A DNA stretch of 64,000 bases, from positions 868,001 to 932,000 of the forward strand of contig CANMOU010000001.1 in the NCBI GenBank assembly GCA_947499555.1. Reading direction: 5' to 3'. A program made the translations under genes and the position numbers. Every line of letters begins with the position of its first letter. The stretch's first letter is position 1. Positions 707 through 58,023 of the stretch are shown here, piece by piece. The stretch is from an uncultured Roseovarius sp. (GTDB lineage Bacteria > Pseudomonadota > Alphaproteobacteria > Rhodobacterales > Rhodobacteraceae). The notes under the pieces are model-generated. The model saw nothing but the letters and a program-made list of their open reading frames with translations, did no database searches and had not been told where the DNA came from.

Positions 707-1771
707 ATGACGCAGACCATCGTCGAAAGCAAAACCAAGACCGCCATCATCGGCTTTGATCAGCCCTTCTGCGTGATCGGAGAACGGATCAACCCCACCG
801 GGCGCAAGAAACTGGCGGCCGAGCTGGAGGCCGGGGATTTCTCAACCGTTGAGGCCGATGCGCTGGCGCAGGTTGCAGCCGGGGCCACAGTTCTTGATGT
901 GAACGCGGGTGTGGTCTACAATTCCAATCCCGATCCCAACCAGACCGAACCGCCGCTCATGCGCAAGATGATTGAGCTGGTTCAGGGTTTGGTCGATGTG
1001 CCGCTTTGCATCGACAGCTCGGTGCCCGGCGCCTTGGAAGCGGGTCTGGAGGCCTGTGAGGGCCGTCCGCTTCTGAACTCGGTCACGGGTGAAGAGGAAC
1101 GGCTCGAATCGATCCTGCCGCTGGTCAAGAAGTACAACGTTCCGGTCGTTGCGATTTCCAACGATGACACCGGCATTTCCGAGGATCCCGACGTGCGCTT
1201 TGCGGTGGCCAAGAAGATCGTCGAGCGTGCCGCCGATTTTGGCATTCCGGCCCATGACATTGTTGTGGACCCGCTGGTCATGCCCGTGGGCGCGATGGGC
1301 ACGGCGGGGTTGCAGGTCTTTACCCTGGTGCGCAAGCTGCGCGAGGAACTGGGCGTGAACACCACTTGCGGTGCGTCCAACATCAGCTTTGGCCTGCCCA
1401 ACCGGCACGGCATCAACAACGCGTTCCTGCCCATGGCGATGGGCGCCGGCATGACCTCGGCCATCATGAACCCCGTGGCCCTGCCGGTGAAAGAGGCCGA
1501 CAAGGCCGCCAAACGCGCCGAGATCGAGGCGGCAGGCATCATTCTGCCCGAGGATATGGATGACGAAACCTTCTGTCAGCTCTTTGGCCTTGGCTCTACC
1601 AAGTCGCGCCCCGGCAAGGAAATGGAAGCCATCCGCGCTGCCAACTTCCTGACCAACAACGACCCGCATGGCGGCGAATGGATCCGGTTCAACAAAGCCC
1701 CTGCCAAACCCGGCGAAGAGGCCGGTGGCCGTGGCGGCCGCGCCGGCGGACGGCGCAGACGCCGCGCATAA
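707..1771 (+). CDS. methyltetrahydrofolate:corrinoid methyltransferase (pterin-binding domain protein, split MetH piece)
   Basis: The 354-residue protein is a pterin-binding TIM barrel of the DHPS/MeTr type. Visible motifs are CVIGERINPTGRKK near the N-terminus, LDVNAG, PLCIDSS, LLNSVTGE, the DPLVMPVG strand and NISFGLPNR. It should carry a methyl group between tetrahydrofolate and the cobalt of a corrinoid protein. It corresponds to the folate-binding module of methionine synthase MetH as a separate protein; its likely partners are the corrinoid protein at 57.3 kb and the homocysteine-binding protein at 54.1 kb. The last 15 residues are Gly/Arg only apart from Ala and end in RRRRRA, a tail that ordinary MeTr proteins lack and that recurs at the end of the 54.1 kb protein. 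It follows the reductase gene by 3 bases and is closed by a terminator. Confidence 0.88.
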   Translation: MTQTIVESKTKTAIIGFDQPFCVIGERINPTGRKKLAAELEAGDFSTVEADALAQVAAGATVLDVNAGVVYNSNPDPNQTEPPLMRKMIELVQGLVDVPLCIDSSVPGALEAGLEACEGRPLLNSVTGEEERLESILPLVKKYNVPVVAISNDDTGISEDPDVRFAVAKKIVERAADFGIPAHDIVVDPLVMPVGAMGTAGLQVFTLVRKLREELGVNTTCGASNISFGLPNRHGINNAFLPMAMGAGMTSAIMNPVALPVKEADKAAKRAEIEAAGIILPEDMDDETFCQLFGLGSTKSRPGKEMEAIRAANFLTNNDPHGGEWIRFNKAPAKPGEEAGGRGGRAGGRRRRRA

Positions 1772-1795
1772 GAAACCGGCATTCGCAATGATCAG

Positions 1796-1820
1796 GCCCC
1801 GGCACCGACCGGGGCTTTTT
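1796..1820 (+). terminator. rho-independent terminator after the folate methyltransferase
   Basis: A 7-bp GC stem (1796-1802 with 1809-1815) has a 6-base loop and is followed directly by five T. It lies 25 bases after the stop codon of the methyltransferase gene. Confidence 0.85.
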
Positions 1821-2147
1821 CTTGTGCAGTTCCCAAAGTTATTCCCGTCTCAGAGATCAAGAGCCGTCGCAGCACGTGCGCCACAAAATGGGCCAATTTG
1901 GCATGCTAAGCTGCTGAAGATCACAAGATTTCGAGAGAACCGATGTGCCTGTTGCAGCAAGATACCAAGGCGACAAGACCCGAATTGCATCGTCGTCCTC
2001 GTCCTGCAGGTCCGGTCAATGCAAGGCCAACGCCGCTCCAACAGCATCCAAAAGAAATTTCCAGCAAGATTTGTGCCCGGTGATTTCACCGGTTTGACCA
2101 GTTTCGGAGGCATTCAAACGTAATAATATTCAAGGAGGAAATTGAAC
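1821..2147. other. intergenic region before the low-GC orphan gene
   Basis: About 330 bases follow the terminator. Open frames here on either strand have no recognisable family and unfavourable codon use, so I call no gene. A strong ribosome binding site (AAGGAGGA, 2132-2139) at its right end belongs to the next gene. The leader is AT-richer than the coding DNA to the left. No riboswitch fold was recognised. Confidence 0.5.
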
Positions 2148-3272
2148 ATGCGCGAGTATCACATTCCAAAACAAGAGCTCAAAGTTGTTCCGGGTGTTTC
2201 AATCGTTTTCAAAGGAACGGTTAAAGTGGATTTTCCCAAGGCCCGGATAGAAATCCCCACTCATGTCTCAGGGTGCAAGGATTATACCTATCGCATCTCT
2301 CTCGATCCGACTTCCGGCAAATGGAGCGGCCAGGACACGCATAAGTGGACGCTTGCAAGTTACGAGGTTGCCGTGAGATTGAGCATTGATCCCCAAGCGC
2401 CGCGTTACGTTCAGGCCGAAGTGATCCACCCCACCAAGAACAAACCCAAGCGGCTATGGCACGACAAGTTTGACATCTTCGATCCGTATAAAGAGCGGAA
2501 AGTCGAGATGTTCGCGCAGGGCGCATTCATTGAACCCATCAAATCCAATGCCGATCATACTTATGCGGTTGGCTATGACGACGCGGGCAAGCGAAACTAC
2601 CTTTGGCCCTGCGGTGGCGATCACGACCAGAACCAGCGCTCCATCGGGCACGGCATGGCATTTCAGCCCGAATGCGACTGCCTTTCGCAAACCCGAACCG
2701 ACCCGCTGACGAAAGGATTGGCTGGAATAAGATATGGTCTGGATGGCGTCTGCCATCAGGCAACCAACAGGATCATGTGCACAGCTGGTTTGGAAGTCAA
2801 CGACGCCCTGGGCTACAAAAGCAAAGGCTGGAAATACCTCACCTACACATTGTACGGGCGGTTGGGTCTCAAGGCGCGTGATGGGCTTGGAGCCAAGAAA
2901 TGGAAGAGCATCTGCAAGGGGTGCCTTACTAAAAGCTATCCCTATTGCTCCGAGGAAACCGAATTGCTTTTCTCTGCAGATGAACATCCCGACCTGACAC
3001 AAGCCCATATCGACGCGCATCAAGAGCACATCATTGAGCTTCGCGACACTCTTCTGGACACCTACAAGAAACTTGCCGCCGGAACGCTCTCGGCCCGCGA
3101 CTATGCCGAAAACGCCAATAGCTCAATCAACGCGCACAAGTCCAAAATGCGAGAGGTCTTGGGCGATGCGTTACATGTTGATCTGTTTGAAGATATCGCT
3201 GCGGTCGACGTTACAGTGGTTGAACCCGCCATTGCCGAAACGGTCTTTGCAGATGACCCGAGTTACCCCTAG
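2148..3272 (+). CDS. orphan protein with DGVCHQ motif, unknown function
   Basis: A 374-residue protein that I do not recognise. The ATG at 2148 sits 8 bases after a perfect AAGGAGGA; a TTG six bases upstream is less likely. The middle contains several Cys and His: CGGDHDQ near residue 155, IGHG followed by PECDC, YGLDGVCHQATNR near 200-210, and CKGCLTKSYPYC near 255-265. The Cys-His pair in DGVCHQ and the neighbouring His could be a papain-like or transferase-like active centre, or the cysteines could bind metal. The last 90 residues look helical and charged. There is no signal peptide or membrane segment. GC content is clearly below that of both neighbours, and the gene stands alone between two terminators, both suggesting acquisition by transfer. 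Confidence 0.7.
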   Translation: MREYHIPKQELKVVPGVSIVFKGTVKVDFPKARIEIPTHVSGCKDYTYRISLDPTSGKWSGQDTHKWTLASYEVAVRLSIDPQAPRYVQAEVIHPTKNKPKRLWHDKFDIFDPYKERKVEMFAQGAFIEPIKSNADHTYAVGYDDAGKRNYLWPCGGDHDQNQRSIGHGMAFQPECDCLSQTRTDPLTKGLAGIRYGLDGVCHQATNRIMCTAGLEVNDALGYKSKGWKYLTYTLYGRLGLKARDGLGAKKWKSICKGCLTKSYPYCSEETELLFSADEHPDLTQAHIDAHQEHIIELRDTLLDTYKKLAAGTLSARDYAENANSSINAHKSKMREVLGDALHVDLFEDIAAVDVTVVEPAIAETVFADDPSYP

Positions 3273-3324
3273 GACGCGGGGCCCGCACATTGCCGACCTC
3301 TGGCCGGATCTCCCAAAAAGCAAA

Positions 3325-3350
3325 AGCCCCGGTGTGATCCGGGGCTCTTT
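3325..3350 (+). terminator. terminator after the orphan gene
   Basis: An 8-bp stem AGCCCCGG/CCGGGGCT (3325-3332 with 3339-3346) with a 6-base loop is followed by TCTTT. It is 52 bases after the orphan stop. An AAAAG run on the left side means it may also end leftward transcription from the small gene at 3558. Confidence 0.75.
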
Positions 3351-3399
3351 ACACGCGGGGTCGGGTTATGTGCGCCAAGGGCGCTTGCCCCGGCAGGTG

Positions 3400-3558
3400 C
3401 TACATCATGAAGCCCATCACATAGACGCCCGAAGTCATGAAAACGATGCCACTGACGTAATCAGTCATCTTCAAGGGCGCTTTTGGTTTTTTGGGGTTCA
3501 TGGTCCATTCGGTCCATTTCTTCTGTTCGTCGACAGGTTCTTCGTCATCCCAGTACAT
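3400..3558 (-). CDS. small single-span membrane protein, unknown
   Basis: A 52-residue protein beginning MYWDDEEPVDE. The start at 3558 is supported by a GAAAGG ribosome binding site 8 bases upstream; a start 9 codons earlier has no such site. The N-terminal half is charged (acidic, then KKPKAPLK) and the last 22 residues form one hydrophobic stretch rich in Met, Val and Gly, consistent with a C-terminal membrane anchor. Function unknown. Small tail-anchored proteins of this shape occur as accessory subunits of respiratory complexes, but nothing here ties it to one. Confidence 0.6.
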   Translation of the reverse strand: MYWDDEEPVDEQKKWTEWTMNPKKPKAPLKMTDYVSGIVFMTSGVYVMGFMM

Positions 3559-3775
3559 CGTAACAGCCTTTCTCAGTGCCCCCACCGAGAATGCGTACTG
3601 AGCACTGAGAATGTGACGAAATTATGGCAACCGTGGCGGCGCTGCGTCGAAAGCCCGTAAAAACCGGTGCATTTACCTACAAACTGGAATTAATCTTAGT
3701 GCTTCTGGCGCACTATTCGCGAAACCGAAACCGCCTGCCGATTCGTTCTGCATCGGGATTGCCACTTGTGCGGCT

Positions 3776-4378
3776 CTAGACCAGCCCGATGTCCCGGGCG
3801 CGCATGGCCGCATGCGTCCGGTTTTTCGCCGAAAGCTTTCGCGACAGCGTCTTGACGTGCAATTTGACGGTCACTTCCTCTATTTTCAGATCGCGGGCAA
3901 TTTCCTTGTTAAGCTTGCCCGCAGCCACCCCCCGGAGCACATCGAACTCGCGCGGCGTGAGTTGCACTTCCTCTCCCATGTCATCCGTTTCCAGAAAGGC
4001 TTGGGGCACAAAAATCTCTCCGTTCAACATGAGCCACAAGGCAGCGACGACGTCCTTTGAACTGAGCGTCTTGGGCAGAAAACCGGCAGCTCCCGCCTCT
4101 AGAGCCTGCCGTGCGACTTTGGGCGGCGCGGAACCGGACAGGATCGCAACCGGGCAGTCACATGCAGCGCGCATGATCTTTAACCCACCCAGCCCGATGG
4201 GTCCCGGCAGCGTGTAATCCAAGAGGATCAGATCGAAAGGTCCATTTTCGGCGACCACGCGAAGGGCATCGTCATGGCTGCGGGCCTCAAATACGTCAAA
4301 TCCCTTTTGCCTGCGCAAAAGGTCGGTGAGCGCCTCGCGCATCACATCTTGATCGTCGGCAAAAAGAAGTTTTGCCAC
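3776..4378 (-). CDS. NarL/LuxR-type response regulator
   Basis: The 200-residue protein has an N-terminal receiver domain (DD at residues 8-9, phospho-acceptor Asp in the LILLDYTLPGP strand, Thr/Ser at LSGS, Lys in LPK) and a C-terminal LuxR helix-turn-helix (LTPREFDVLRGVAAGKLNKEIA, then VTVKLHVKTLSRKL). It should be a DNA-binding regulator activated by phosphorylation. The start is GTG with a GGAGG 4 bases upstream. No histidine kinase is adjacent, so it is an orphan regulator, and its target cannot be inferred from neighbours. Confidence 0.85.
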   Translation of the reverse strand: MAKLLFADDQDVMREALTDLLRRQKGFDVFEARSHDDALRVVAENGPFDLILLDYTLPGPIGLGGLKIMRAACDCPVAILSGSAPPKVARQALEAGAAGFLPKTLSSKDVVAALWLMLNGEIFVPQAFLETDDMGEEVQLTPREFDVLRGVAAGKLNKEIARDLKIEEVTVKLHVKTLSRKLSAKNRTHAAMRARDIGLV

Positions 4379-4719
4379 GTCGCCTCCATCAGGCCCCGCT
4401 CACCAGTTGCTGTCGTAGAGAGTTCTCGCCAAGTTTATAGGCCTCTCTTCTGGTGGCACAATGCCGACAAGCCGGATTTCAGATCTTGAAGCTGGATCGC
4501 CTGTTTTCCGGCGAGAATTTGTGCAGCTTTGGAAACAAAGCAGACCTAAGGACTGATTGTTTCTCACATGATCGGCCAGCAGCCTGGTGTCTTGGTGCTC
4601 TGCACCGGACAGAGGCGGTTGATTCCCACGGGCGCGGACACCTGAGAATCAGAGCCAGGCTTTACTTTCGAAAAAATCTTATGTTTCATTCGTCTGGTTC
4701 AAAAATATGTCTGATCGCA
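4379..4719. other. intergenic region between divergent regulators
   Basis: This 341-bp stretch separates the leftward response regulator from the rightward LysR gene. The LysR frame stays open through much of it, but the predicted extension (from 4453) has no family similarity and LysR proteins do not carry such a leader. It presumably holds the two divergent promoters; I could not place a convincing -35/-10 pair. Confidence 0.45.
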
Positions 4720-5700
4720 ATGAAACCATCGGAACTCAGCCTGAAGGCGCTCGAAGTCTTTTTGCTCACTGCGCAGACCGGCTCTGTGCAATCCGCAGCA
4801 CAGGATGCCGGACTGTCGGTCAGCACGGTCTCTCACCATCTCAAATCACTTGAAACCGTATTAGGCACGCAACTTCTCGATCACAGCCGCCGCCCCCTGC
4901 GGGTGACACCGGCCGGAGCTGTTTTTCAGCGCGATATAGATGCTGCGTTGCGGCTTATCCGAAAGGCCCAGGCCGAGGTTCAAGCCGGTTCAGTCGGCGA
5001 AACCCGGTCGCTGGCGCTGGCGCTGATCGAGGATTTTGACAGCGACATCGCCCCGGAACTGGCACGTCATTTGACAACGGCGATGCCCAAATGCCGCTTC
5101 CGGCACCTCTCACGCCCCAGTCACGAGATTTTCGAGTTACTGCGCAGCCAGGACATCGAAATCGGTCTTGCCGCCCGACCGCAATCCGTACCGGACAACC
5201 TGATCGAACACCCGTTGCTGCGCGACCCATATGTGCTTGTCGTACCGGCCAATCAGGATATCCGCGAAGATCGCCTGATTGCCGGGCAGACCGATCTTCC
5301 GTTTCTGCGTTATTCCTCGAACCAGATCATGGCGCGCCAAATCGAGCAGCAACTGCGCCGTCTGGGCCGCAACCTGCCCAGCCAGTATGAGTTTGAGAGC
5401 ACGCAAACCCTGCTAAGGCTGGTTGCCGAAGGCGCAGGCTGGACGATCACCACGCCGATGAATTACCTGCGAGCTCAACGGTTTCACCGGCAGGTACGTT
5501 TGGCCGCCTTCCCTGACAAGGGCTTTGCGCGCACCATATCGCTTTTTGCCACCGATCTGGCAGACCCGGTCGTCGTGCGAACCGTCACGGAAATCCTGCG
5601 GCGACTGATTGAGACGCGCGCCGTGCACCGAGTGACAGAGGCCGCCCCCTGGCTAGAGCACGCTTTCCGCCTTTTGCCGGTCAGTCATGATGGATCCTGA
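4720..5700 (+). CDS. LysR-family transcriptional regulator
   Basis: A 326-residue LysR regulator. Residues 5-65 form the winged helix-turn-helix (LKALEVFLLTAQTGSVQSAA, then STVSHHLKSLE), and the rest is the two-lobed effector-binding domain. The ATG at 4720 gives the normal family arrangement; an in-frame ATG at 4681 would add 13 residues. It converges on the MttB-family gene, and the two coding regions overlap tail to tail by 20 bp. The neighbouring methylated-amine genes are the obvious candidate targets, with a quaternary amine or its breakdown product as inducer, but that is inference from position. Confidence 0.87.
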   Translation: MKPSELSLKALEVFLLTAQTGSVQSAAQDAGLSVSTVSHHLKSLETVLGTQLLDHSRRPLRVTPAGAVFQRDIDAALRLIRKAQAEVQAGSVGETRSLALALIEDFDSDIAPELARHLTTAMPKCRFRHLSRPSHEIFELLRSQDIEIGLAARPQSVPDNLIEHPLLRDPYVLVVPANQDIREDRLIAGQTDLPFLRYSSNQIMARQIEQQLRRLGRNLPSQYEFESTQTLLRLVAEGAGWTITTPMNYLRAQRFHRQVRLAAFPDKGFARTISLFATDLADPVVVRTVTEILRRLIETRAVHRVTEAAPWLEHAFRLLPVSHDGS

Positions 5701-7213
5701 AGCGCCCACGGATGGCTGCGTCCTGTTCCGCCGAAAGATAGGTCGGCTTGTGTGTCGCGAGCACCTCGCGGGCCTTGTCACGCGCCACGCTCCACGCATC
5801 CGGCGCGCCTTTTTCGGCCCAGGTACGTGGCATGTCGCGATCCGCCAGCTTGGGATAGACGTAATCGCGTTCCATCGCCTCAAAGGTCTGCGCCCCGCCA
5901 AGGAAATGCCCTTCGCCCAACACCGCCTCACAGATTGCCTCAAACCCCAGGTTTGCGTCGGTCACTTCAACACCGCGCAGGGCGCGGTAGGTGGCCGCAT
6001 GCATTTCGTCATCCAAGATAAACGCCTCGAAACTCACACCCAGAAGAGAGGCGGTCATGCCCGAACTTTCATAGATCAGATTCCCGCCTGCCAATGCTGC
6101 GGCCAGTGACGTGATCCCCTTCTCTGCCCCATATTGCGCATCAATTGCCTTGGCATCGCTCATTGAGGCGGCCACACCGCTGGGCAGGCCAAGCCAGTTC
6201 GACAATTGCGCCGAGGCTGCGTTGAGCACCGCAATCTCGCCACCGCCCCCGGCAAAGGCCCCTGTCCGCAGATCGATCACCAAAGGCCAGTTGGAAAAGA
6301 TCATCGGATGGCCCGGTTTGATGACATGCACCATCACCAGGCTGGCCAGTGTCTCAGATAGCGACTGCGCCAGAAAACCGGCCAGCGTCGCCGGCGCTGT
6401 CGCCCCCGCCTGTGCCGCAGTGATAAGCGACACGGGGATATTGTGCGCGAGGCACTCAAACGTGACATCCACGGCATCTTCGCCAAAGCGCATGGGGCTG
6501 ATCACCGGGCTGATATGCGCCTTGAGCCAAGGCCGCTTCGCAAATTCGCCCGGCCCTCCCGAAGCGATGTCGAACATGTCGACAATCGGCGCGACATGTT
6601 CGGCCAGCGTAAAGGCCGTTGCCACCGGCTTGGTTGTGTTCCTGATCAGTGCATAGGCCGTGTTCACATCCAGATCCCACGGGTCTTCCATATCGGTGGC
6701 AATGCAGCAGCGCGTGAACCAGCTCACATTGGTCAGTGTGTCTTGCAGCCGGGTGAAATTGTGCAGATCCTCTAGCGTCGAGGGCCGGTAGAGCCCGGTT
6801 TCCAGATCAAGCGTCTGCACCGCCGCGCCACCGGTGCCGAAATGCACGGATTTACCGCCTACCGTAATACTTCGCGCCGGATCACGACCCTGAAAGGTAA
6901 AACTCTTCGCCGCCGACGCGATGGCTGCCTTGACCAAAGAGGTTGGCAAAGACACACGGTCATGCGCCAGATTGCGTGCGCCGTGTTGAAGAAAAAGATC
7001 CGCCAGACGACCCGGCACCTCGCCCACACCCAGATCTTCGAGCAAGCGCAGAGCCGTGTCGAAAATTTGCTGCATATCGGTGTCAGACAGCGGCTTGTAC
7101 TGACCTCCTATTTGACCGGGCGGAGCAGGATTAACCGCAGGAGGCGCCGCCGCCTTGGCCAGGCGTTCACGCCGACCTGAGCGGCGTGGAGATGTACCGG
7201 CCTTTTGCGTCAC
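5681..7213 (-). CDS. MttB-superfamily (non-pyrrolysine) methyltransferase
   Basis: A 510-residue protein of the trimethylamine methyltransferase (MttB) superfamily, which transfers a methyl group from a quaternary or tertiary amine to a corrinoid protein. The frame is uninterrupted, with no in-frame amber codon, so it belongs to the non-pyrrolysine branch (members known to use glycine betaine, proline betaine or carnitine). GTG at 7213 is preferred because GGGAGA lies just upstream; the frame extends 18 codons further without a ribosome binding site. The N-terminus is basic (SPRRSGRRERLAK) before the family starts at about residue 30. It is divergent from the dimethylglycine dehydrogenase-like gene, which suggests glycine betaine as substrate (product dimethylglycine). 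The methyl acceptor may be the corrinoid protein at 57.3 kb. Confidence 0.85.
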   Translation of the reverse strand: MTQKAGTSPRRSGRRERLAKAAAPPAVNPAPPGQIGGQYKPLSDTDMQQIFDTALRLLEDLGVGEVPGRLADLFLQHGARNLAHDRVSLPTSLVKAAIASAAKSFTFQGRDPARSITVGGKSVHFGTGGAAVQTLDLETGLYRPSTLEDLHNFTRLQDTLTNVSWFTRCCIATDMEDPWDLDVNTAYALIRNTTKPVATAFTLAEHVAPIVDMFDIASGGPGEFAKRPWLKAHISPVISPMRFGEDAVDVTFECLAHNIPVSLITAAQAGATAPATLAGFLAQSLSETLASLVMVHVIKPGHPMIFSNWPLVIDLRTGAFAGGGGEIAVLNAASAQLSNWLGLPSGVAASMSDAKAIDAQYGAEKGITSLAAALAGGNLIYESSGMTASLLGVSFEAFILDDEMHAATYRALRGVEVTDANLGFEAICEAVLGEGHFLGGAQTFEAMERDYVYPKLADRDMPRTWAEKGAPDAWSVARDKAREVLATHKPTYLSAEQDAAIRGRFRIHHD

Positions 7214-7376
7214 ATGGCTTCTCCCGCTTTGCAGAAATATCGAGCGGCATCCGGGTGTTTTGAGCAAGCAATTTCATGGCTCAACGATGAAATAGAAACT
7301 CATTTTCGATTTTTTCAAAAGACAAACACATAGCATTGACGCATGCTCTGATTTTTAGCCCTTTGGGAGGATCCAG

Positions 7377-43519: not shown

Positions 43520-43532
43520 GCCGGCTCGGCAT

Positions 43533-47611: not shown

Positions 47612-47645
47612 CTACGACACGTCCCGCTGGCTTCTCAAGACAAAC

Positions 47646-48980: not shown

Positions 48981-48985
48981 GTCAG

Positions 48986-50749
48986 CTACTCCGCTGCTCG
49001 GGTTTCATCCGGTAAGATCGGCAATCGCATCTCGAACACGGCCCCACCCGTTTCTGCATTTCTGGCCGTCAACCGGCCTCCTAGGTCGTTGACGATGCCG
49101 GAAGAAATGGCAAGCCCCAAGCCGACCCCGTCGCCCGGTTCCTTGGTGGTGTAGAACGGCTCGAACAAATTCTCGATATCGACAATCCCGGTTCCGTTGT
49201 CGCGCACCGTGAGCACTGCTGTGTCACCCGAAACAAGCAAGATCTCGATGCGTGGCTCATCATTGGATTTGGTGGCGTCAAGCGCATTGCGCAAGAGATT
49301 GATGATCACCTGCTCGATCCGCACCCGGTTACCCATCACCCAGACCGGCTCGGATGGCAATGTACGCGTGATATCAACCCGCCCCTGACGCAGCTGCGGT
49401 TCCATCAGCGCAAGCGAGGAATGCACCGCATCGCCCATATTTACAGGCTGAATGTCCTCTCCGTCCTGGCGCGCATAGGATTTGAGCTGCTTGGTGATGA
49501 CGCCCATACGCTCGATCAGGTCATCGATCCGCTGGAAGGATGACAGGGCCTCATCGGGGCGATTTCGATTGAGCAAAAGCCGCGCCCCGGCCAGATAGGT
49601 CTTCATTGCGGCAAGCGGCTGGTTAAGCTCGTGGCTGACCGCCGCAGACATCTCGCCCAGCACCGCCAGTTTCGAACTTTGCTGCAGGGTTTGTTCGGCC
49701 ACGGCAAGGTTCTCTTGCACCCTCTGACGCTCGGCGATTTCCCGCTGCAGCCTTGCGTTCAATGCGCGAAGCTCTGCCGATTCCCGCTGGAAGACATTCA
49801 TCCGCGCGGCCGTTTTTCGGTTCAGGAAATAGAAGGCCAGCGCCAGCAGAATCGCGAATACCATGATCTCAAGCGCCAGAACGCCGTTCACCCGGTCTCG
49901 AATACTGGCAAAGGTGGTGAAGGAGGTGATCCGCCAGCCGCGAAACGCCACCCTGCCCTGCACCCGCATCACCGCCTCGCCCGACAGATAGGCATCCGGC
50001 GGCAGGGCCGATGACCAGTCCGTGGTGGCCTGCAGCGCGCGCAGGATGGCCGAGTTTGCGGGCTGCTGCGCGAGGGCATCTTGTTCGGTCAGTCCGCGCC
50101 AGCGTGGTTCGGTTGCCAGGATAATCTGGCCGTTGCTGTCGGTCACCAGAATAGCATCGGAAATACCGGCCCAGGCACGTTCGAATTTCTGCAGATCGAC
50201 TTCGACGACAATCATACCCGCCAAGGACTGATTGCTCGTGATCCGCCGGGAATAGACAAAGCCGAAATCGCCTGCCTCGCCTTGCACAACGGTGAAGATG
50301 TTGTCCGCTGACCGCAGGGTCTCGACAAAGTAAGGATCCTGACGTTTGCTTTGCCCGATCTGCGCACGATCCGTGGCCGCAACGACCCGCCCATCCTTGT
50401 CGAGCATCGTCAGAGAGGCCGCGCCGATCTCTTCATTGAACGCGATAAGTCGTTGTGAAGACTGCGCATATTCGCCGCTGTCAAGCGCCGCGATCAGCGC
50501 CGGGTCCCGCGCCAGAAGCTGCGGCACAATTGCGTTCTGCCGCAACTCTGACAGCAGGTTACCACTGTAGAGCGCCAGACGCAGCTCGGCTCGGTTGCGG
50601 GTGTTTTCGGTAAATCGATCCGTGAGAAGCCGGTTGGTGACAAACACCACCGCAATGGCGATGGCCGTGAGCAACAGCAAGGCCAATCGTGCGCGCCAGC
50701 CAATTGTCTTGGCCTCATGCTCGGGATCGGGCGTGCGCAACCTTATCAT
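48986..50749 (-). CDS. dctB: DctB-like sensor histidine kinase
   Basis: A 587-residue membrane kinase. Membrane helices at about 18-40 and 290-312 flank a double-PAS periplasmic sensor domain (ARDPALIAAL; AATDRAQIGQSKRQDPYFVETL), as in DctB proteins that sense succinate, malate or fumarate. A coiled coil follows, then the H-box LGEMSAAVSHELNQPLAAMKTYL and the ATP-binding N, G1 and G2 boxes (NLLRNALDATK, VRDNGTGI, GDGVGLGLAIS). It is followed by its response regulator. No dicarboxylate transporter gene is within the window. Confidence 0.88.
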   Translation of the reverse strand: MIRLRTPDPEHEAKTIGWRARLALLLLTAIAIAVVFVTNRLLTDRFTENTRNRAELRLALYSGNLLSELRQNAIVPQLLARDPALIAALDSGEYAQSSQRLIAFNEEIGAASLTMLDKDGRVVAATDRAQIGQSKRQDPYFVETLRSADNIFTVVQGEAGDFGFVYSRRITSNQSLAGMIVVEVDLQKFERAWAGISDAILVTDSNGQIILATEPRWRGLTEQDALAQQPANSAILRALQATTDWSSALPPDAYLSGEAVMRVQGRVAFRGWRITSFTTFASIRDRVNGVLALEIMVFAILLALAFYFLNRKTAARMNVFQRESAELRALNARLQREIAERQRVQENLAVAEQTLQQSSKLAVLGEMSAAVSHELNQPLAAMKTYLAGARLLLNRNRPDEALSSFQRIDDLIERMGVITKQLKSYARQDGEDIQPVNMGDAVHSSLALMEPQLRQGRVDITRTLPSEPVWVMGNRVRIEQVIINLLRNALDATKSNDEPRIEILLVSGDTAVLTVRDNGTGIVDIENLFEPFYTTKEPGDGVGLGLAISSGIVNDLGGRLTARNAETGGAVFEMRLPILPDETRAAE

Positions 50750-50794
50750 GGCGCTATGCTAGACCGCCGTGGCCCGCGCCTCAAGCGGGCAGCG

Positions 50795-51463
50795 TCATGC
50801 ATCGGCAAGTTGTCCGACAAGGCTTGTAAACAATGTCGCCCCTTCAGTGTTGCCATGGGTCGGCTCTGCCATCCGCTCTGGGTGCGGCATCATTCCCAGA
50901 ACCCGGCGGTTTTCCGAAAGGATGCCGGCAATATCCTGCTGTGAGCCGTTGGGGTTCTCGACATAGCGAAAGGCGACACGTTCTTCGTCATTCAGCTTCT
51001 GCAACACATCTGCATCGGCGAAGTAATTGCCATCATGATGTGCAATCGGAATGGTGATCGTCGTGCCGGCATTATAGCCAGACGTAAAGGCGGAATTAGA
51101 TGTTTCCACTTTCAGATCAAGCGCTTTGCAGACATACTTCAAGCCTGAATTGCGCAGCAACACCCCCGGAAGCAGGCCGGTTTCAGTCAGCACCTGAAAC
51201 CCGTTGCAGATGCCAAGCGCATAGCCGCCGCGTTCCGCATGTGCCTTGACCGACTGGCAAATCGGCGAATTCGCCGCAATCGCCCCGCAGCGCAGGTAAT
51301 CGCCAAAGGAAAAGCCGCCCGGAATACCCACCACATCCACGCCTTTGGGCAGGTCGGTGTCCTTGTGCCAAACCATCGTGACCTTGGCACCGGCATTCTC
51401 GAAAGCGACCTTCATGTCGCGATCACAATTCGAGCCGGGGAAAACGATGACAGCCGCGTGCAT
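50795..51463 (-). CDS. purQ: phosphoribosylformylglycinamidine synthase, glutaminase subunit PurQ
   Basis: A 222-residue class I glutamine amidotransferase supplying ammonia to PurL for the fourth step of purine synthesis. The nucleophile Cys is in [14 protein letters not shown] (about residue 86), and the His-Glu pair is in MPHPERM. It works with PurS (52.5 kb) and a PurL outside the window. It is the last gene of the leftward pur cluster, 12 bases after the alcohol dehydrogenase gene. Confidence 0.95.
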
Positions 51464-51475
51464 GGGAAATCTCCT

Positions 51476-52519
51476 TTACTGCGTGAAGTCTGTGATAACC
51501 GCCACGCCGGGCGGTGCGGGATGATCAAAGGCGGCCAGTTCGGCGCTGGCGGCACTTAAGGGTACCGTGCGTGTCACTAGCGGAGCAAGCTCAAGCTGAC
51601 CGCCCGCAATGAGATTGAGAAGCGACGGGTATCGCCAGCTTGGCATGCCGCGCGTGCCGTGCAGGCTTAGCTGGCCACTGTAAAGCGCGTCCATCGGAAG
51701 GGTCATCTGCGTGTGCTGGCCGGTGGGCATGCCGATTTGCACCATGCGGCCCAGTTTGCGCAAAGACCGCAGCGCGGCGGTGGTGGTCGTCTCGATCCCC
51801 AGGGCCTCAATTGCCACATGCGCGCCGCCGCCGGTGATCTCGCGCACCGCCTCGGCCGCATCTCCGGAGGTGGCATTCACAACGCCATCGGCACCAAGCG
51901 AACTGGCGTAATCAAGCTTTTCGGCCACCACGTCGACAACGACGACCCGCGCCCCGAGCGCGCGTGCCAGCAGCAAGGTGGAAATTCCCACACCGCCACC
52001 ACCAAACACCGCAACCCATTCGCCGGGCTGCAATTCGGCACGCCCCACCAAGGCCTGCCAGGCCGTGGTCACGCGACAGCCAAGCCCGGCGGCCAGATGC
52101 ACATCCAACCCCTCGGGCAGCGCTGCGAGGTTGGCATCGGCATGGGCCACCGCAACATATTCCGCAAAGGCACCATCACAGGTAAACCCAGGCACAACCT
52201 GTTGCGCGCAAATGGTCTGCTGACCTGCCGCGCAATCGCGACATCTGCCGCAGCCCAGGATGAAAGGCGCGATCACCCGGTCCCCAACGGCCCAGCGCGC
52301 CACGCCCGCACCTGTTGCGACAACCTCACCGCAAAATTCGTGCCCCGGCGTGATCGGCAGCGCCACATCGGGGTCCGACCCGGTCCAGGCATGCCAGTCA
52401 GACCGGCAAATACCGCAGGCCAGCACACGCAGAACAACGCCACCGGCGGGCGGCACAGGATCATCGATCTCGGTTATGTCCAGAGGCGCGCGATAGGCGG
52501 TGATCCGGGCGGCGCGCAT
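51476..52519 (-). CDS. zinc-dependent alcohol dehydrogenase-family protein
   Basis: A 347-residue medium-chain dehydrogenase. Catalytic-zinc ligands are Cys in LACGICRSDWHAW and His-Glu in TPGHEFCGEVV; the structural-zinc cysteines are in GCGRCRDCAAGQQTIC; the NAD-binding loop is VFGGGGVGIS. The substrate is an alcohol or aldehyde that cannot be specified. It lies inside the purine cluster, 3 bases after purS and 12 before purQ, and must be co-transcribed with them, though it has no known part in purine synthesis. Confidence 0.88.
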   Translation of the reverse strand: MRAARITAYRAPLDITEIDDPVPPAGGVVLRVLACGICRSDWHAWTGSDPDVALPITPGHEFCGEVVATGAGVARWAVGDRVIAPFILGCGRCRDCAAGQQTICAQQVVPGFTCDGAFAEYVAVAHADANLAALPEGLDVHLAAGLGCRVTTAWQALVGRAELQPGEWVAVFGGGGVGISTLLLARALGARVVVVDVVAEKLDYASSLGADGVVNATSGDAAEAVREITGGGAHVAIEALGIETTTTAALRSLRKLGRMVQIGMPTGQHTQMTLPMDALYSGQLSLHGTRGMPSWRYPSLLNLIAGGQLELAPLVTRTVPLSAASAELAAFDHPAPPGVAVITDFTQ

Positions 52520-52522
52520 CGC

Positions 52523-52762
52523 TCAGGCGATCTCCACCGAATAGGATTCAATCACCGTATTGGCCAAAAGCTTCTCACACATCGCCGTCACGGTCTCTTC
52601 AGCTTTGGCGGCGTCGGTCTCGGCCAGATCAAGCTCGATCACCTTGCCTTGCCGCACGCCTTCGACCCCGTCGAAGCCAAGTTGGCCCAGCGCATGACGC
52701 ACCGCCTCGCCCTGCGGGTCGAGAACGCCGTTTTTCAGCATGACATGTACGCGTGCTTTCAT
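52523..52762 (-). CDS. purS: phosphoribosylformylglycinamidine synthase subunit PurS
   Basis: A 79-residue protein (starts MKARVHVMLKNGVLDPQGEA, then LGQLGFDGVEGVRQGKVIEL) that is the small structural subunit of the three-part FGAM synthase, joining PurQ to PurL. It lies 13 bases after purC and 3 bases before the inserted dehydrogenase gene. Confidence 0.93.
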   Translation of the reverse strand: MKARVHVMLKNGVLDPQGEAVRHALGQLGFDGVEGVRQGKVIELDLAETDAAKAEETVTAMCEKLLANTVIESYSVEIA

Positions 52763-52775
52763 CTGCTGTTGCCCC

Positions 52776-53537
52776 TCAGTTGATCAGCGTCGGTTTGGTC
52801 ATGGGCGTGGCCCCTTTTGGCATCACGCCCAAACGTTTGGCCACTTCCGAATAGGCATCCGTCAGGTTGCCCAGGTCGCGGCGGAACACATCCTTGTCAA
52901 GCTTGCGGCCTGTCTCGATATCCCAAAGGCGGCAGCTGTCAGGAGAGATTTCATCGGCCACGATAAGACGCATGAAATCGCCTTCGTAAATCCGGCCAAT
53001 CTCAATCTTGAAATCGATCAGGCGAATGCCGGCCCCATACATGACGCCCGACAGGAAATCATTCACCCGCAAGGCCAGCGACAGGATATCTTCCATATCC
53101 TGCTGGCTTGCCCAGCCAAAGGCGGCGATATGCTCTTCGGTGACAAGAGGATCGCCAAGGCTGTCATCCTTCAGGCAGTATTCCACCACCGGACGCGGCA
53201 GCTGCGTGCCCTCGTCCATGCCCAAGCGCTTGGCCATCGTACCCGCGGCGTAATTGCGGACGATCACTTCCAAAGGCACGATCTCGCAGGACCGAACGAG
53301 CTGTTCGCGCATATTCAGCCGTTTGATGAAATGGTTCGGAATGCCGACATTGGTCAGGCCGGTCATGAAATACTCGCTCAACATGTTGTTGAGCACACCC
53401 TTGCCGTCAATGACGTCTTTTTTCTGGGCATTGAAGGCCGTGGCATCATCCTTGAAATACTGCACAATTGTGCCGGGCTCGGGCCCTTCAAAGAGTGTTT
53501 TCGCTTTGCCTTCGTAGATTTTCTTGCGCCGCGCCAT
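52776..53537 (-). CDS. purC: SAICAR synthase PurC
   Basis: A 253-residue phosphoribosylaminoimidazole-succinocarboxamide synthase, which joins aspartate to CAIR in purine synthesis. Signatures are [20 protein letters not shown] at the N-terminus, [17 protein letters not shown] and the ATP/aspartate site [10 protein letters not shown]. It heads the leftward cluster purC-purS-adh-purQ and is divergent from the ATPase zeta-subunit gene. Confidence 0.95.
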
Positions 53538-53707
53538 GGGCTCACTTTCATCTGTGTCCGCGACAGGGACTCGCGGTATATGGCGCTCTCATAGTGCATG
53601 GGGAGAATTGGAGCAAGGTGGCCCATAAACCCTTGCGCCCCGCTGGCCTTGCGGCCATATCTTGGGCAACGGCACCCTATGGCGCTGTGCTTAGAACGGA
53701 GAGCATA

Positions 53708-54022
53708 ATGAGCACCTTTGACGACCGCGAAAACGCCTTTGAAAACAAATATGCCCATGACGAGGAAATGAAATTCAAGGCCGAGGCGCGCCGCAACAAA
53801 TTGCTGGGCCTGTGGGCCGCAGACCTTCTGGGCAAATCCGGCGAAGACGCGGACGCCTATGCCAAAGAGGTGATCTTGTCAGACTTCGAAGAGGCCGGTG
53901 ATGATGACGTTCTGCGCAAAGTCGCAGGTGACCTGGGCGACCGCGCCGACGCCGCGACAGTACGCGCCAAGATGGACGAGCTGATGCTCGTGGCGCAAGA
54001 GCAGATCATGAACGAGATCTGA
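53708..54022 (+). CDS. F1-ATPase inhibitor subunit zeta (DUF1476)
   Basis: A 104-residue protein starting MSTFDDRENAFENKYAHDEE. It matches the alphaproteobacterial zeta subunit, whose helical N-terminus enters the F1 catalytic interface and blocks ATP hydrolysis, while the four-helix C-terminal part binds the enzyme. The inhibitory segment with AHDEEMKFKAEARRNKLLGLW is intact. The longer open frame to the left has no similarity; ATG at 53708 gives the full family protein. ATP synthase genes are not nearby. Confidence 0.9.
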   Translation: MSTFDDRENAFENKYAHDEEMKFKAEARRNKLLGLWAADLLGKSGEDADAYAKEVILSDFEEAGDDDVLRKVAGDLGDRADAATVRAKMDELMLVAQEQIMNEI

Positions 54023-54130
54023 CACCAGAGCCTTCACAAATTCGGCTCACTATCTTCATGAAGATTATGAGTTTGCGCGCGCATGCGTGACGTGGCAGAC
54101 CTCGACATCCACAAAACGGGGTATATCACG

Positions 54131-55153
54131 ATGGGCCACGCGCTAAGCACGCTGCTGTCAGAGCGGGACTGGATTCTGGCCGATGGCGCGACCGGAACCA
54201 ACCTCTTCAACATGGGGTTAAGTTCGGGCGACGCCCCCGAGATGTGGAATGTGGAGCATTCTGATCGTGTCACACTTCTGTACAAGCAAGCTGTCGATGC
54301 TGGCTCGGATCTTTTTCTGACCAACTCCTTCGGAAGCAATGCCTCGCGCCTGAAGCTGCACGGTGCAGAGAAGCGCGCGCATGAGCTGTCGCGCATCGCC
54401 GCCGAGCTTGGCCGCGAGGTGGTCGACCGGCAGGACCGCAAGGTTGTTGTTGCAGGCTCCGTGGGCCCCACGGGTGAGATCATGGCGCCGATGGGGTCCC
54501 TTACTCATGAACTGGCTGTAGAGATTTTCCACGAACAGGCTGACGGGCTGAAAGACGGTGGTGCCGATGTGCTGTGGCTGGAAACCATTTCCGCGCCTGA
54601 AGAATACAAGGCCGCCGCCGAGGCTTTTGCGCTGGCAGACATGCCCTGGTGCGGCACGATGAGTTTTGACACTGCGGGGCGCACCATGATGGGGCTGACC
54701 TCGGCCGATATGTCGAAGATGGTCGAGAAACTGCCGAATGCGCCGTTGGCATATGGTGCGAATTGCGGAGTCGGCGCCTCTGATCTGCTACGCACGATCC
54801 TGGGTTTTACCACCCATGGCACAGACCGACCAGTGATTGCCAAAGGCAATGCCGGTATCCCCAAATATGTGGACGGGCATATTCACTATGACGGAACGCC
54901 GGAGTTGATGGCCGACTATGCCGTGCTGGCACGCGATGCGGGAGCGACGATCATCGGTGGCTGCTGCGGCACGCAGGCCGAGCATCTGGCACTGATGCGC
55001 GAGGCGTTGGAAACACGCCCACGCAGCGACGCCCCAACACATGAGGCCATCGCGCAAGCGCTTGGTCCCTTTTCCTCTGCCGTGGATGGCACCGAAAAAA
55101 ATGCCGGCAGCGCAGAACGTGAACGCCGCGGAAGACGCCGCCGGCGCGCCTGA
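54131..55153 (+). CDS. homocysteine/betaine-type methyltransferase (split MetH homocysteine module)
   Basis: A 340-residue TIM-barrel S-methyltransferase. DGATGTNLFNMGL near the start and the three zinc cysteines, in YGANCGVG and in GGCCGTQ, define the homocysteine-binding module of MetH/BHMT. It would accept the methyl group from the corrinoid protein at 57.3 kb to form methionine. A direct betaine-homocysteine reaction is the alternative suggested by usual annotation. After the conserved fold comes a short linker and a strongly basic tail, ERERRGRRRRRA, resembling that of the pterin-binding protein at 0.7 kb. ATG at 54131 gives the family N-terminus; another ATG lies at 54083. Confidence 0.85.
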   Translation: MGHALSTLLSERDWILADGATGTNLFNMGLSSGDAPEMWNVEHSDRVTLLYKQAVDAGSDLFLTNSFGSNASRLKLHGAEKRAHELSRIAAELGREVVDRQDRKVVVAGSVGPTGEIMAPMGSLTHELAVEIFHEQADGLKDGGADVLWLETISAPEEYKAAAEAFALADMPWCGTMSFDTAGRTMMGLTSADMSKMVEKLPNAPLAYGANCGVGASDLLRTILGFTTHGTDRPVIAKGNAGIPKYVDGHIHYDGTPELMADYAVLARDAGATIIGGCCGTQAEHLALMREALETRPRSDAPTHEAIAQALGPFSSAVDGTEKNAGSAERERRGRRRRRA

Positions 55154-55330
55154 GCTTGCATCCGGATAGCTGAAACCGGTTGGACACATTGCCTGTTGCT
55201 CGACAAAGCGGTGGTTTTTTTGGCACAGAACCATGCATCTGCAGAATTTCTGGTGGAAAGGTCAAAAAAATATACCGGCAAGACGCAAGATATGGTATGA
55301 ATCACCTATTGAGTACATTGGGGCAGTAAC

Positions 55331-55963
55331 ATGAAACATTTCTTCAAATCGCTCGCTGTTTGTGCGGGACTTCTTGTGCTTTGCAGCGCGGCACAGGCCG
55401 CAACCGTCACCGCCGGACCAGGTGGATTTGATGGCGGATACGCCACCACAATCACCTATGAAAGTGACAACAGTTTTGCGCGCCGTGGCACAAGCAACGA
55501 CCGGGACAATCCGCTTAACGCGCTCGGCGCAACCGACGGCGCCTTTTTCGAGCTGGGCTTCCGTGGCACTGCCGATTTCACCTTTGGCACCCGTTTCGCC
55601 AACACGATTGAAATCACCGAAGTGACATTCGGCAGTCCATCGAACTTTCCCGAGGCCGTGAAGGTCTATGTGGGTGACGGTGGCTTGTTCCAGTTTGTCA
55701 CCGAGCTCACCAATGTCGCGGCGCAGGGTGGCGGCGTGATCTCTCTGGCCGGTCTCATCGGCACAAGCTTTGACACGGTGCGCCTTGTCGATGCCTCGCC
55801 GCTGTCCTCCACGGCACAAAGCGATGCGTTTGGACCTCTGGGTGGATTTGACATCGACTCGATCCGGGTGGCCCCAGTGCCGCTTCCGGCAGCAGGTGTG
55901 ATGCTTCTCACCGCCTTGGGTGGCATGGCCTTCATGCGCCGACGTCGGAAGAACGACGCCTAA
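55331..55963 (+). CDS. secreted protein with VPLPA-type C-terminal sorting signal
   Basis: A 210-residue protein. A signal peptide covers residues 1-23 (cleavage after SAAQA). The body is rich in Gly, Thr and Asp and beta-strand-like, resembling a carbohydrate-binding or discoidin-like fold (FANTIEITEVTFG). The C-terminus has the tripartite signal: VPLPAAG, a hydrophobic helix (VMLLTALGGMAFM) and RRRRKNDA. VPLPA signals are recognised by exosortase-type enzymes in exopolysaccharide-producing bacteria. It is a single-gene unit with its own terminator. Function unknown, probably at the cell surface. Confidence 0.85.
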   Translation: MKHFFKSLAVCAGLLVLCSAAQAATVTAGPGGFDGGYATTITYESDNSFARRGTSNDRDNPLNALGATDGAFFELGFRGTADFTFGTRFANTIEITEVTFGSPSNFPEAVKVYVGDGGLFQFVTELTNVAAQGGGVISLAGLIGTSFDTVRLVDASPLSSTAQSDAFGPLGGFDIDSIRVAPVPLPAAGVMLLTALGGMAFMRRRRKNDA

Positions 55964-55986
55964 GTCAAACGAATTTCTACAGCGGA

Positions 55987-56015
55987 TGGCCTGCACTTCG
56001 GTGCAGGCCATTTTC
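55987..56015 (+). terminator. terminator after the VPLPA protein gene
   Basis: A perfect 10-bp stem TGGCCTGCAC/GTGCAGGCCA (55987-55996 with 56001-56010) with a TTCG tetraloop, followed by TTTTCG. It lies 23 bases after the stop and 3 bases before the convergent radical SAM gene ends. Confidence 0.88.
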
Positions 56016-56017
56016 GT

Positions 56018-57109
56018 TCAGTCAAAGAGCGACAGTTGCGCACCTGCCGTCAGCGGCGGCTTGAACAAATCACTGCGCAACTTCCCGATCTCGCCATCCA
56101 GCCCCAGCCGCTTGGCAGTAAGGCGGAATCTCTGCGCGATCATCTCGGCGTAGGGCCCTTCCCCACGCATCCGCCTGCCCCAGTCTGATGCATAGTCCTG
56201 GCCGCCATGCATGTCCCGGACATGGCCCGTCACCCGTTTCGCCCGATCCGGCACATGCACTTCAAGCCACTCGCGAAACAGCGGTGACACCTCCAGAGGC
56301 AGACGCAGCATGACCCAGGTTGCCACCTTGGCGCCAGCCTCTGCACCCGCCTTCAAAATCGGCTCCATCTCATGGCAGGTCAGTCCCGGAATGATCGGCG
56401 AAACCATGATCCGCACTGGAATGCCCGCACTTGCAAGCCGTTCAATGGTTTGCAGCCGGTGTTTTGGCACAGGCACGCGCGGCTCAAGCCTGCGCGACAG
56501 GTCGGGATCAAGTGTTGTAACCGTGATCCCGACCTTAACAAGTCGCCGCGAAGCCAAATCCGACAGGATGTCGATGTCACGCTCAATCAGCACACCCTTC
56601 GTGGCGATAGTCACCGGGTGGTTGCAATCAGACAGCACCTCAAGACAGGCCCGCAAGATCTCGTAGTCTTTTTCAATCGGCTGGTACGGGTCGGTATTTG
56701 TTCCGATAGCAACCGGCGCAACACGGTAGCCAGGTTTCGACAAGTCTCGCGCCAGAACCTCTGCTGCATCAGGGCGCGCAATCAGCTTGGTCTCAAAATC
56801 AAGCCCCGCCGACAGCCCAAGCCAGGTATGCGTGGGCCGCGCAAAGCAATAGATACATCCGTGCTCACAGCCCCGATACGGGTTGATCGAGCGATCAAAC
56901 GGCACATCCGGCGAGCTGTTGTAAGTGATGATCTTGCGCGGGCGTTCAAGGCCGACTTGCGTGCGCAAGGCGTCCTGACCCGTCTCCTGATACCACCCGT
57001 CCGCTTCAAAACAGCGGTCGTACGCCTCATATCGACCAACCGTGTTGCTGACGGCCCCCCGACCACGCACCCGCAAAACGGGGTCCACTGAAATTTTGCT
57101 GTCGTCCAT
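56018..57109 (-). CDS. radical SAM protein of the PA0069 / SPL-like family
   Basis: A 363-residue radical SAM enzyme. The cluster motif is CEHGCIYCFARPTH at about residues 75-88, preceded by SSPDVPFDRSINPYRG, and the fold continues with AIGTNTDPYQPIEKDYEI and TIATKGVL. These features match the PA0069/Rv2578c family, distantly related to spore photoproduct lyase, whose reaction is not established. The start at 57109 (MDDSKIS) gives the family length; the longer frame adds 70 codons of unrelated sequence. It is divergent from the corrinoid protein gene with 209 bp between them. Confidence 0.85.
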   Translation of the reverse strand: MDDSKISVDPVLRVRGRGAVSNTVGRYEAYDRCFEADGWYQETGQDALRTQVGLERPRKIITYNSSPDVPFDRSINPYRGCEHGCIYCFARPTHTWLGLSAGLDFETKLIARPDAAEVLARDLSKPGYRVAPVAIGTNTDPYQPIEKDYEILRACLEVLSDCNHPVTIATKGVLIERDIDILSDLASRRLVKVGITVTTLDPDLSRRLEPRVPVPKHRLQTIERLASAGIPVRIMVSPIIPGLTCHEMEPILKAGAEAGAKVATWVMLRLPLEVSPLFREWLEVHVPDRAKRVTGHVRDMHGGQDYASDWGRRMRGEGPYAEMIAQRFRLTAKRLGLDGEIGKLRSDLFKPPLTAGAQLSLFD

Positions 57110-57318
57110 CTTTCGATGTTGGAACAAAATAAGAACACTTGCAATAAACTCATATATCCCTTCGAAACTTTTCATGCCACGAAGGTGCAAATTTGCGGTA
57201 GAGGTCGGGGAAAGCGCGACCGATGTCGCAATCAAACCAGTGATTCCGCCGCATTTCGGCGAAAGCTCGAAAGTGTATACATGCGCGCACAGGCGCCCGA
57301 GACTTAAGGTTAAAGCCA

Positions 57319-58023
57319 ATGTCTGACGAAGAAGACGACATCATCCTCAGCGAACTGGACGACGAAGAACTTGTCCAACAAATGTGGGACGACCTTTATG
57401 ACGGTCTGAAGGAAGAGATCGAGGAAGGCGTCAATATCCTGCTGGAGCGCAAGTGGGAGCCCTATGATGTGCTTACCAAGGCGCTGGTGGGCGGCATGAC
57501 CATCGTCGGCAAGGACTTTCGCGACGGCATCCTGTTTGTCCCCGAAGTGCTGCTGGCGGCCAACGCGATGAAGGGTGGCATGGCCATCCTCAAGCCGCTT
57601 CTGGCCGAAACCGGCGCACCCCGGGTTGGCAAGATGGTCATTGGCACGGTGAAGGGCGACATTCATGACATCGGCAAGAACCTTGTGTCGATGATGATGG
57701 AGGGCGCGGGGTTCGAGGTGGTCGATCTGGGCATCAACAACCCGGTCGAGAACTATCTTGAGGCCATCGAGAACGAACAGCCCGACATCCTCGGCATGTC
57801 GGCCCTGCTGACCACCACGATGCCTTACATGAAAGTCGTGATCGACACGTTGGTCGAACAGGGCATCCGCGATGACTATATCGTGCTGGTGGGCGGTGCG
57901 CCGTTGAACGAAGAGTTCGGCAAGGCCATCGGTGCCGACGCCTATTGCCGCGACGCCGCCGTCGCGGTGGAAACCGCCAAGGAACTGGTGGGCCGCAAGC
58001 ACAATCAGGGTGCCACAGGCTAA
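57319..58023 (+). CDS. stand-alone corrinoid (B12-binding) methyl carrier protein
   Basis: A 234-residue protein with the MetH-type cap helices (about 20-95) and a B12-binding Rossmann domain. The cobalt-ligand motif is GDIHDIGKN with His116; MSALLTTT and VGGAPLNEE are the other base-binding loops. It carries methyl groups on cobalt between methyltransferases. The N-terminus is unusually acidic: 17 Asp/Glu against one Lys in the first 37 residues (SDEEDD, LDDEEL, KEEIEE). It corresponds to the cobalamin module of MetH, or to MtbC/MttC proteins, and is the natural partner of the proteins at 0.7, 5.7 and 54.1 kb. No reactivation domain is fused to it, so a separate reductase or RamA-type activator is needed. 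Confidence 0.92.
   Translation: MSDEEDDIILSELDDEELVQQMWDDLYDGLKEEIEEGVNILLERKWEPYDVLTKALVGGMTIVGKDFRDGILFVPEVLLAANAMKGGMAILKPLLAETGAPRVGKMVIGTVKGDIHDIGKNLVSMMMEGAGFEVVDLGINNPVENYLEAIENEQPDILGMSALLTTTMPYMKVVIDTLVEQGIRDDYIVLVGGAPLNEEFGKAIGADAYCRDAAVAVETAKELVGRKHNQGATG

Follow-up and report, generated by a model that had tools for sequence, protein, structure and literature searches.

How does one cofactor carrier meet, by turns, the several enzymes with which it must exchange a methyl group, when all of them are separate proteins? The question is raised by a 64,000-nucleotide stretch of DNA from an uncultured Roseovarius sp. (GenBank assembly GCA_947499555.1, contig CANMOU010000001.1, positions 868,001 to 932,000 of the forward strand; hereafter the window). 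It holds the separate parts of MtgBCDE, a known system that is also described as a split methionine synthase and glycine betaine methyltransferase. The enzymes expected to act on its free corrinoid carrier, MtgC (here called clients), bear an arginine-rich end, and MtgC itself begins with a strongly acidic segment. These charged ends are conserved in orthologues, specific to the system, and co-occur with MtgC. To judge from their sequences, the tags of four unrelated client families appear to be of a single kind and to belong with a single carrier.

The split methionine synthase was found in Phaeobacter inhibens (Price et al. 2018; PMC5764234), and the system was renamed MtgBCDE in Ruegeria pomeroyi (Mausz et al. 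2025; PMC12478193). Both published systems have the same components as the one described here: MtgC, MtgD, MtgE, an MtgB of family PF06253, a RamA-like reactivase, and a DUF1638 protein, the last two of which are also both present in the Roseovarius genome. MtgC and MtgD have been genetically proven to serve methionine synthesis as well as betaine demethylation: Deletion leads to methionine auxotrophy in R. pomeroyi and P. inhibens and to loss of growth on betaine in R. pomeroyi (PMC5764234; PMC12478193).

Charged ends of the carrier and its clients

MtgC is encoded by mtgC (57319–58023, plus strand; Pfam B12-binding and B12-binding_2), a free-standing B12 carrier consisting of a cap and a core B12-binding domain, with class-wide orthologues of at least 72% identity. 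Its first 37 residues hold 17 Asp or Glu and one Lys, exactly as originally predicted. Residues 1–17 (57319–57369, plus strand) precede the Pfam cap domain and include invariant Leu and Gln positions, while residues 18–37 form the first helix of that domain. Since the Pfam match begins at residue 19, the extension accounts for just the first half of the acidic stretch; the five best-matching solved corrinoid proteins align to MtgC from residues 15–24.

The pterin-binding protein and the homocysteine-binding protein are fused neither to each other nor to the corrinoid protein, according to Pfam and NCBIfam. The former is MtgD, the methyl-tetrahydrofolate:corrinoid methyltransferase (707–1771, plus strand; Pfam Pterin_bind; NCBIfam NF005719 above its cut-off), which ends GGRRRRRA; its Arg-rich tail is formed by the last 15 residues (1724–1768, plus strand). 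The latter is the homocysteine methyltransferase MtgE, also called bmt (54131–55153, plus strand; Pfam S-methyl_trans; NCBIfam NF005718 above its cut-off), which ends RRGRRRRRA and whose tail, likewise the last 15 residues (55106–55150, plus strand), is conserved in orthologues. Letters and positions of both tails are as the original prediction gave them. It was also right that they are not a DNA repeat: The tails are written in mixed Arg codons (CGT, CGC, CGG, and AGA) in different order, which rules out such a repeat as their source. We note separately that MtgD of this genome (G000) and of G038, which belong to one family, is ∼50 residues longer ahead of the tail than in other families.

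The third client in the window is a methyltransferase of the MttB/MtgB family (PF06253; 5681–7213, minus strand), one of nine in the genome. It starts at a GTG codon, reads V(M)TQKAGTSPRRSGRRERLAK, and carries its Arg-rich tail in the first 20 residues (7154–7213, minus strand). The predicted Arg-rich stretch is thus real, although the part that had been quoted as the beginning of the protein starts at residue 8 and not at residue 1. An Arg-rich N-tail is found on all nine MttB paralogues of the genome, some of which require a non-ATG start. Three of the nine (L007, L008, and L009) score about half as high as the others, as if they formed a divergent subfamily.

How rare such ends are was assessed in 34% of the genome (1.264 Mb, 1124 genes), in stretches picked partly for holding the MttB genes and paralogue genes and not for the reactivase gene. 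Only four of the 1124 have at least six Arg in their last 15 residues. Two are MtgE (eight) and MtgD (seven). The others are a 274-residue transporter-like ATPase, which we take to be an ABC transporter ATPase, and a 682-residue protein ending GGDGGRRRRRRA, which is a corrinoid reactivase of the RACo/RamA type (G000 contig 3, 242510–244558, outside the window). The reactivase ends in a run of six Arg, and its gene lies on another contig than the system genes of the window. It is an additional tagged protein that the original prediction had not named and that would be expected to touch MtgC, and with it a further prediction of the idea holds. At the acidic side, at least 11 Asp or Glu with at most one Lys or Arg in the first 25 residues occur in MtgC only (1/1124), and a looser rule over 37 residues selects two of the 1124. 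A genome-wide count of Arg-rich N-tails is unreliable, as a simple choice of start missed four of seven MttB starts and alternative starts produce many false tails; the evidence for MttB therefore rests on alignments of orthologues.

Conservation, specificity, and co-occurrence

Among near relatives, nearly all of them Rhodobacterales, all 80 MtgC loci (the best 80 of at least 578) have 15–17 Asp or Glu and no more than one Lys or Arg in the first 37 residues. For 61 of these loci the retrieved DNA includes MtgE, which in all 61 has at least five Lys or Arg in the last 20 residues. Across the class Alphaproteobacteria as a whole, MtgC was sought in 387 genomes, and 80 of them have an orthologue of at least 72% identity. 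In 41 MtgC copies (40 loci, 34 families) the first 40 residues contain 11–18 Asp or Glu and 0–4 Lys or Arg; over all distinct MtgC sequences the number of Asp or Glu spans the same range (mean 15.6, with a mean of 1.0 Lys or Arg) and 140/140 are acidic. N-terminal counts depend on the rule for start codons, by which the candidate closest to where the alignment would place the start is taken.

The tails of the clients are kept to a similar extent. At least five Lys or Arg in the last 20 residues are found in 92/92 MtgE proteins (at least five Arg in 90; a broken fragment, L378, from a genome without MtgC is excluded), in 37/38 RACo proteins, and in 38/40 MtgD proteins. The MtgD figure becomes 39/41 if one doubtful row is included, a second copy in L210 (a stretch shared with L134, genome G174) with a long unrelated end that is probably due to a frameshift. 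For MttB, a 20-residue window with at least five Arg occurs in the first 45 residues of 71 of 73 family members, compared with 13 of 658 internal blocks, and the two exceptions are fragments of a single gene (L306). Genes cut by contig ends (L251, L252, and L254) and one without a tblastn hit (L256) were left out of this count. The original prediction had named absence of the tails from orthologues, or a corrinoid protein with a neutral N terminus, as observations that would speak against it; the tails are kept, and no neutral N terminus was found among the orthologues. That the tails are a quirk of the Rhodobacterales lineage is rejected, as they occur across the class.

Two plasmids, of Sinorhizobium sp. 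M103 and Paracoccus methylovorus, carry MttB, MtgC, DUF1638, MtgD, and RACo genes close together, with charged ends as expected, those of MtgC and MtgD being weaker in P. methylovorus. No MtgE match was found on these plasmid loci. A locus with a 91% identical MtgC (L063) lies in a record titled Enemella evansiae and probably reflects contamination of the assembly. Enemella evansiae is presumably an actinobacterium.

A second screen covered 1818 genes in 122 MtgC neighborhoods. At least six Arg in the last 15 residues occur in 46/58 MtgE, 16/20 MtgD, and 21/22 RACo proteins, compared with 0/113 MtgC, 0/98 DUF1638, 0/18 MttB (at the C-terminal end), and 6/1489 others. Pooled, this is 83/100 against 6/1718 (P = 3 × 10^−118, Fisher's test, a descriptive value only since the sequences are related).

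Within the tags the letters drift and the charge stays, on four different protein families and at either end of the protein. The 92 MtgE tails comprise 92 distinct 15-mers with a mean net charge of +5.3 (lowest 0); their mean pairwise identity is 0.33, compared with 0.21 when the letters are shuffled inside each tail. The 20 residues ahead of the MtgE tail have a net charge of −2.8 and a linker-like composition. The share of Arg among basic residues, R/(R+K), is 0.91–0.99 in the tags but 0.58–0.71 in the protein bodies. At loci below 50% guanine-plus-cytosine (GC) content the two ranges are 0.76–1.0 and 0.40–0.68 (two to six proteins a family), and the preference for Arg over Lys holds even in loci of 32%–33% GC (L247 and L307). 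Across loci of 32%–49% GC the tails are still basic and dominated by Arg, some of them also holding Lys.

The clients and MtgC occur together. PF06253 MttB genes are present in 37/37 genomes with MtgC and in 2/64 genomes without it, both of the latter being fragments. An MtgE match was obtained in four of 80 MtgC-less genomes, one of which is MtgE-like but broken (G082), the other three being only 32%–36% identical. RACo of the MtgC type occurs in 39/40 MtgC genomes and in none of 30 others, 10 of which hold a parallel type only. Related proteins with no known role in serving MtgC provide a comparison within the genome itself: Two other S-methyl_trans proteins of the homocysteine methyltransferase family and a second Pterin_bind protein, which is probably dihydropteroate synthase, have no Arg tail.

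A further comparison is offered by a second corrinoid protein, 41%–51% identical to MtgC, that is found in some alphaproteobacteria. In its operon (L181, Pfam assignments) this protein stands beside a URO-D methyltransferase, a RACo of its own, and a pterin protein of its own. The parallel RACo has a tail in 0/14 cases (0–3 Arg in the last 20 residues). None of 14 parallel pterin proteins has at least six Arg in the last 20 residues (one has five); 10/14 do have at least five Lys or Arg there, because the folded end is itself basic. Both types of RACo are present in three genomes (G404, G264, and G256), and each has the end typical of its type. The MtgC N-terminal motif is found in 0/21 parallel corrinoid proteins, while 135/140 MtgC proteins match the same pattern. 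Such parallel split corrinoid operons make up loci L170–L189 (e.g., L181:5738–10669 and L180:3916–8798), and their carriers begin with a segment of the form MAELSDIxN...

Three other genes of the window deserve mention. Adjoining mtgD, in an arrangement as in R. pomeroyi, is a metF2-like gene (11–703, plus strand) for a methylenetetrahydrofolate reductase, a neighbor in the pathway that bears no tag, has a weak Pfam MTHFR match below the cut-off, and may begin upstream of the window. A DUF1638 protein (58646–59275, plus strand; Pfam DUF1638; predicted start) has no Arg tail, and only 8/130 of its relatives have at least five Lys or Arg in the last 20 residues; its homologue is required for methionine synthesis in P. 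inhibens (PMC5764234). Positions 55331–55963 encode a small secreted-looking protein that ends in a VPLPA...FMRRRRK motif. We take this end to resemble a VPLPA-CTERM sorting signal.

A proposed weak tether and its alternatives

In MtgBCDE, the small carrier takes its methyl group either from methyl-tetrahydrofolate, by way of MtgD, or from methylated amines, by way of the MttB/MtgB enzymes. It passes this group to homocysteine through MtgE and is re-reduced by the RACo/RamA-like reactivase once its cobalt oxidizes. Chemically, its cobalamin must enter the barrels of MtgD, MtgE, and the MttB proteins by turns and also meet the reactivase. Each client bears its Arg-rich end on a seemingly flexible linker, at the N terminus in MttB and at the C terminus in MtgD, MtgE, and the reactivase, and this end may pair with the acidic N terminus of MtgC beside the cap domain. 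We think it rather probable, from the sequences, that the Arg tags tether the clients to MtgC weakly and transiently by way of the acidic segment. With one kind of tag for all clients, each would quickly find and leave the carrier, and folded surfaces would set the productive pose; we infer that tag and segment make contact and that transfer rates would be raised by it. The wider proposition, that this is an address-tag system for a metabolic hub in which four families have acquired a degenerate Arg tag directing them to an acidic cofactor carrier, we put at slightly short of an even chance.

Several observations weigh against the tether. Relative to the DDLY motif, the positions L-14, L-11, L-6, and Q-3 of the MtgC segment are identical in 140/140 proteins. 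Electrostatics alone would leave three invariant Leu and one Gln unexplained; the segment could pack on the cap domain. These residues show that there is more to the segment than its charge, and it may form an acidic amphipathic helix. Across genomes, the net charges of MtgC and of the tags do not covary (rho between −0.10 and 0.09, n = 34–86), both being near saturation in this comparison; the tail charges of MtgD and MtgE give rho = 0.36 (P = 0.06, n = 28). The original prediction is partly supported: It withstood both sequence-level tests, retention of the tails and acidity of the carrier, but the charges of its two sides do not vary together. The RACo tail is kept in 34/36 orthologues; one reactivase has no tail (L377, genome G089), and one has a weak tail (L170, the second copy in G262). 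One MtgE tail has acidic residues after the Arg run (L232), and DUF1638 is genetically part of the system and untagged. In vitro, the P. inhibens MtgE (Bmt) acts by itself on betaine and dimethylsulfoniopropionate (DMSP) (PMC12366255). The parallel corrinoid proteins are mildly acidic themselves, with a net charge of −1 to −10 compared with −9 to −17 in MtgC over the matching 40 residues, and 5/21 are at −9 or below though their partners have no Arg runs. Acidity by itself does not mark a tag receiver, and since the parallel carriers are still acidic, the parallel system is a clean control for the clients only. Lastly, a single site would have to serve several clients, whose tags would compete for it.

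The genome of the untailed reactivase, G089 (loci L201, L377, and L152), also has one of the two least acidic MtgC proteins (net −9), which may point to decay of the tag or else to a frameshift.

What else might account for the charged ends? Arg-rich tails borne on linkers are typical RNA- or condensate-binding elements. The tags may accordingly bring the clients together on another polyanion (RNA, polyphosphate, or a membrane surface) or in a condensate, with the acidic end of MtgC recruited to the assembly or regulating it. The preference for Arg over Lys would suit contacts with phosphates as well as with carboxylates. Yet the strongest acidic N-terminal end in the gene screen sits on the one protein that the tagged enzymes have in common, and the tags are gone where the other corrinoid protein replaces MtgC, so that we consider this explanation unlikely. 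An improbable one, too, is that the acidic segment belongs to the structure of MtgC as an extra helix of the cap domain, and that the tags serve each enzyme separately, in solubility, oligomerization, or stability, their pairing of charges being a coincidence. The invariant Leu and Gln residues and the acidity of other corrinoid proteins whose partners are untagged point in its direction, as does the methanogen MttB oligomer, which is stabilized by its first residues (PMC9842639). It needs, however, four families to have acquired the same tag, each for a reason of its own, and the reactivases, pterin proteins, and homocysteine methyltransferases of other systems are without it.

Arg is abundant in the GC-rich genomes of Rhodobacterales, and one might see in the ends no more than a meaningless habit of their proteins. 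Against this, three of the only four genes with so Arg-rich a C terminus in the genome screen encode MtgC clients, and the tails stay basic and Arg-dominated at low GC. The two gene screens together with the low-GC loci refute such a habit, which we regard as next to impossible, and on the same grounds chance or composition is rejected as the source of the tags.

Relation to known systems and significance

Proteins and genetic roles of MtgBCDE were already known; the charged ends as shared docking tags appear new, and the original prediction that they had not been described agrees with the literature searched. In the sections examined, the papers on the P. inhibens and R. pomeroyi systems make no mention of the charged ends seen here (PMC5764234; PMC12478193). 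The word "arginine" is absent from the main text of PMC12478193, as is "arginine-rich" from the examined sections of PMC5764234 and "arginine" and "tail" from those of the P. inhibens Bmt paper (PMC12366255). Literature searches over open-access papers without their supplements yielded no paper on such tags among the top matches.

The single-chain cobalamin-dependent methionine synthase MetH has the same three chemical modules, and reactivation, within one polypeptide. Its modules are covalently linked, whereas the parts of MtgBCDE are free and would, in the tether reading, be joined by tags. That the tags take the place of the MetH linker, as originally suggested, is no more than an analogy, because MtgC has been set outside the MetH lineage (Mausz et al. 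2025; PMC12478193). In the methanogen complexes MttB–MttC and MtaB–MtaC (PDB 7XCN and 2I2X), a TIM-barrel methyltransferase likewise docks on a cap-domain corrinoid protein, and an N-terminal extra of MtaC aids binding. Unlike the proposed tags, docking there is by folded surfaces, the dimerization loop of the partner subunit of MttB or the N-terminal domain of MtaC (PMC9842639). In the solved structure of a glycine betaine methyltransferase (9YCE), the chain begins two residues ahead of the aligned part and shows no Arg N-tail, although the construct could have been trimmed; its source organism is presumably D. hafniense. Terminal docking tags are familiar from multienzyme systems, as in the encapsulation peptides of microcompartments and the docking domains of carrier proteins, where too a short, linker-borne terminal element brings an enzyme to a shared partner. 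The MtgC system differs in that its hub is a soluble cofactor carrier and its tag is Arg-rich and degenerate in sequence.

In abundant marine bacteria, methionine synthesis and the breakdown of betaine meet at MtgC (PMC12478193). MtgBCD has also been reported from gamma- and deltaproteobacteria (Mausz et al. 2025; PMC12478193). The carrier must receive at least four types of enzyme and release each of them again, and how corrinoid carriers choose their partners is still under study (PMC9842639). If the address-tag reading is true, the tag predicts which uncharacterized PF06253 methyltransferases, up to 15 copies in one genome, feed MtgC, and grafting the tag should suffice to recruit a new methyl donor to the carrier. 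A shared conserved tag would then offer a simple, testable account of partner choice, a marker for new clients, and a part for synthetic methyl-transfer pathways.

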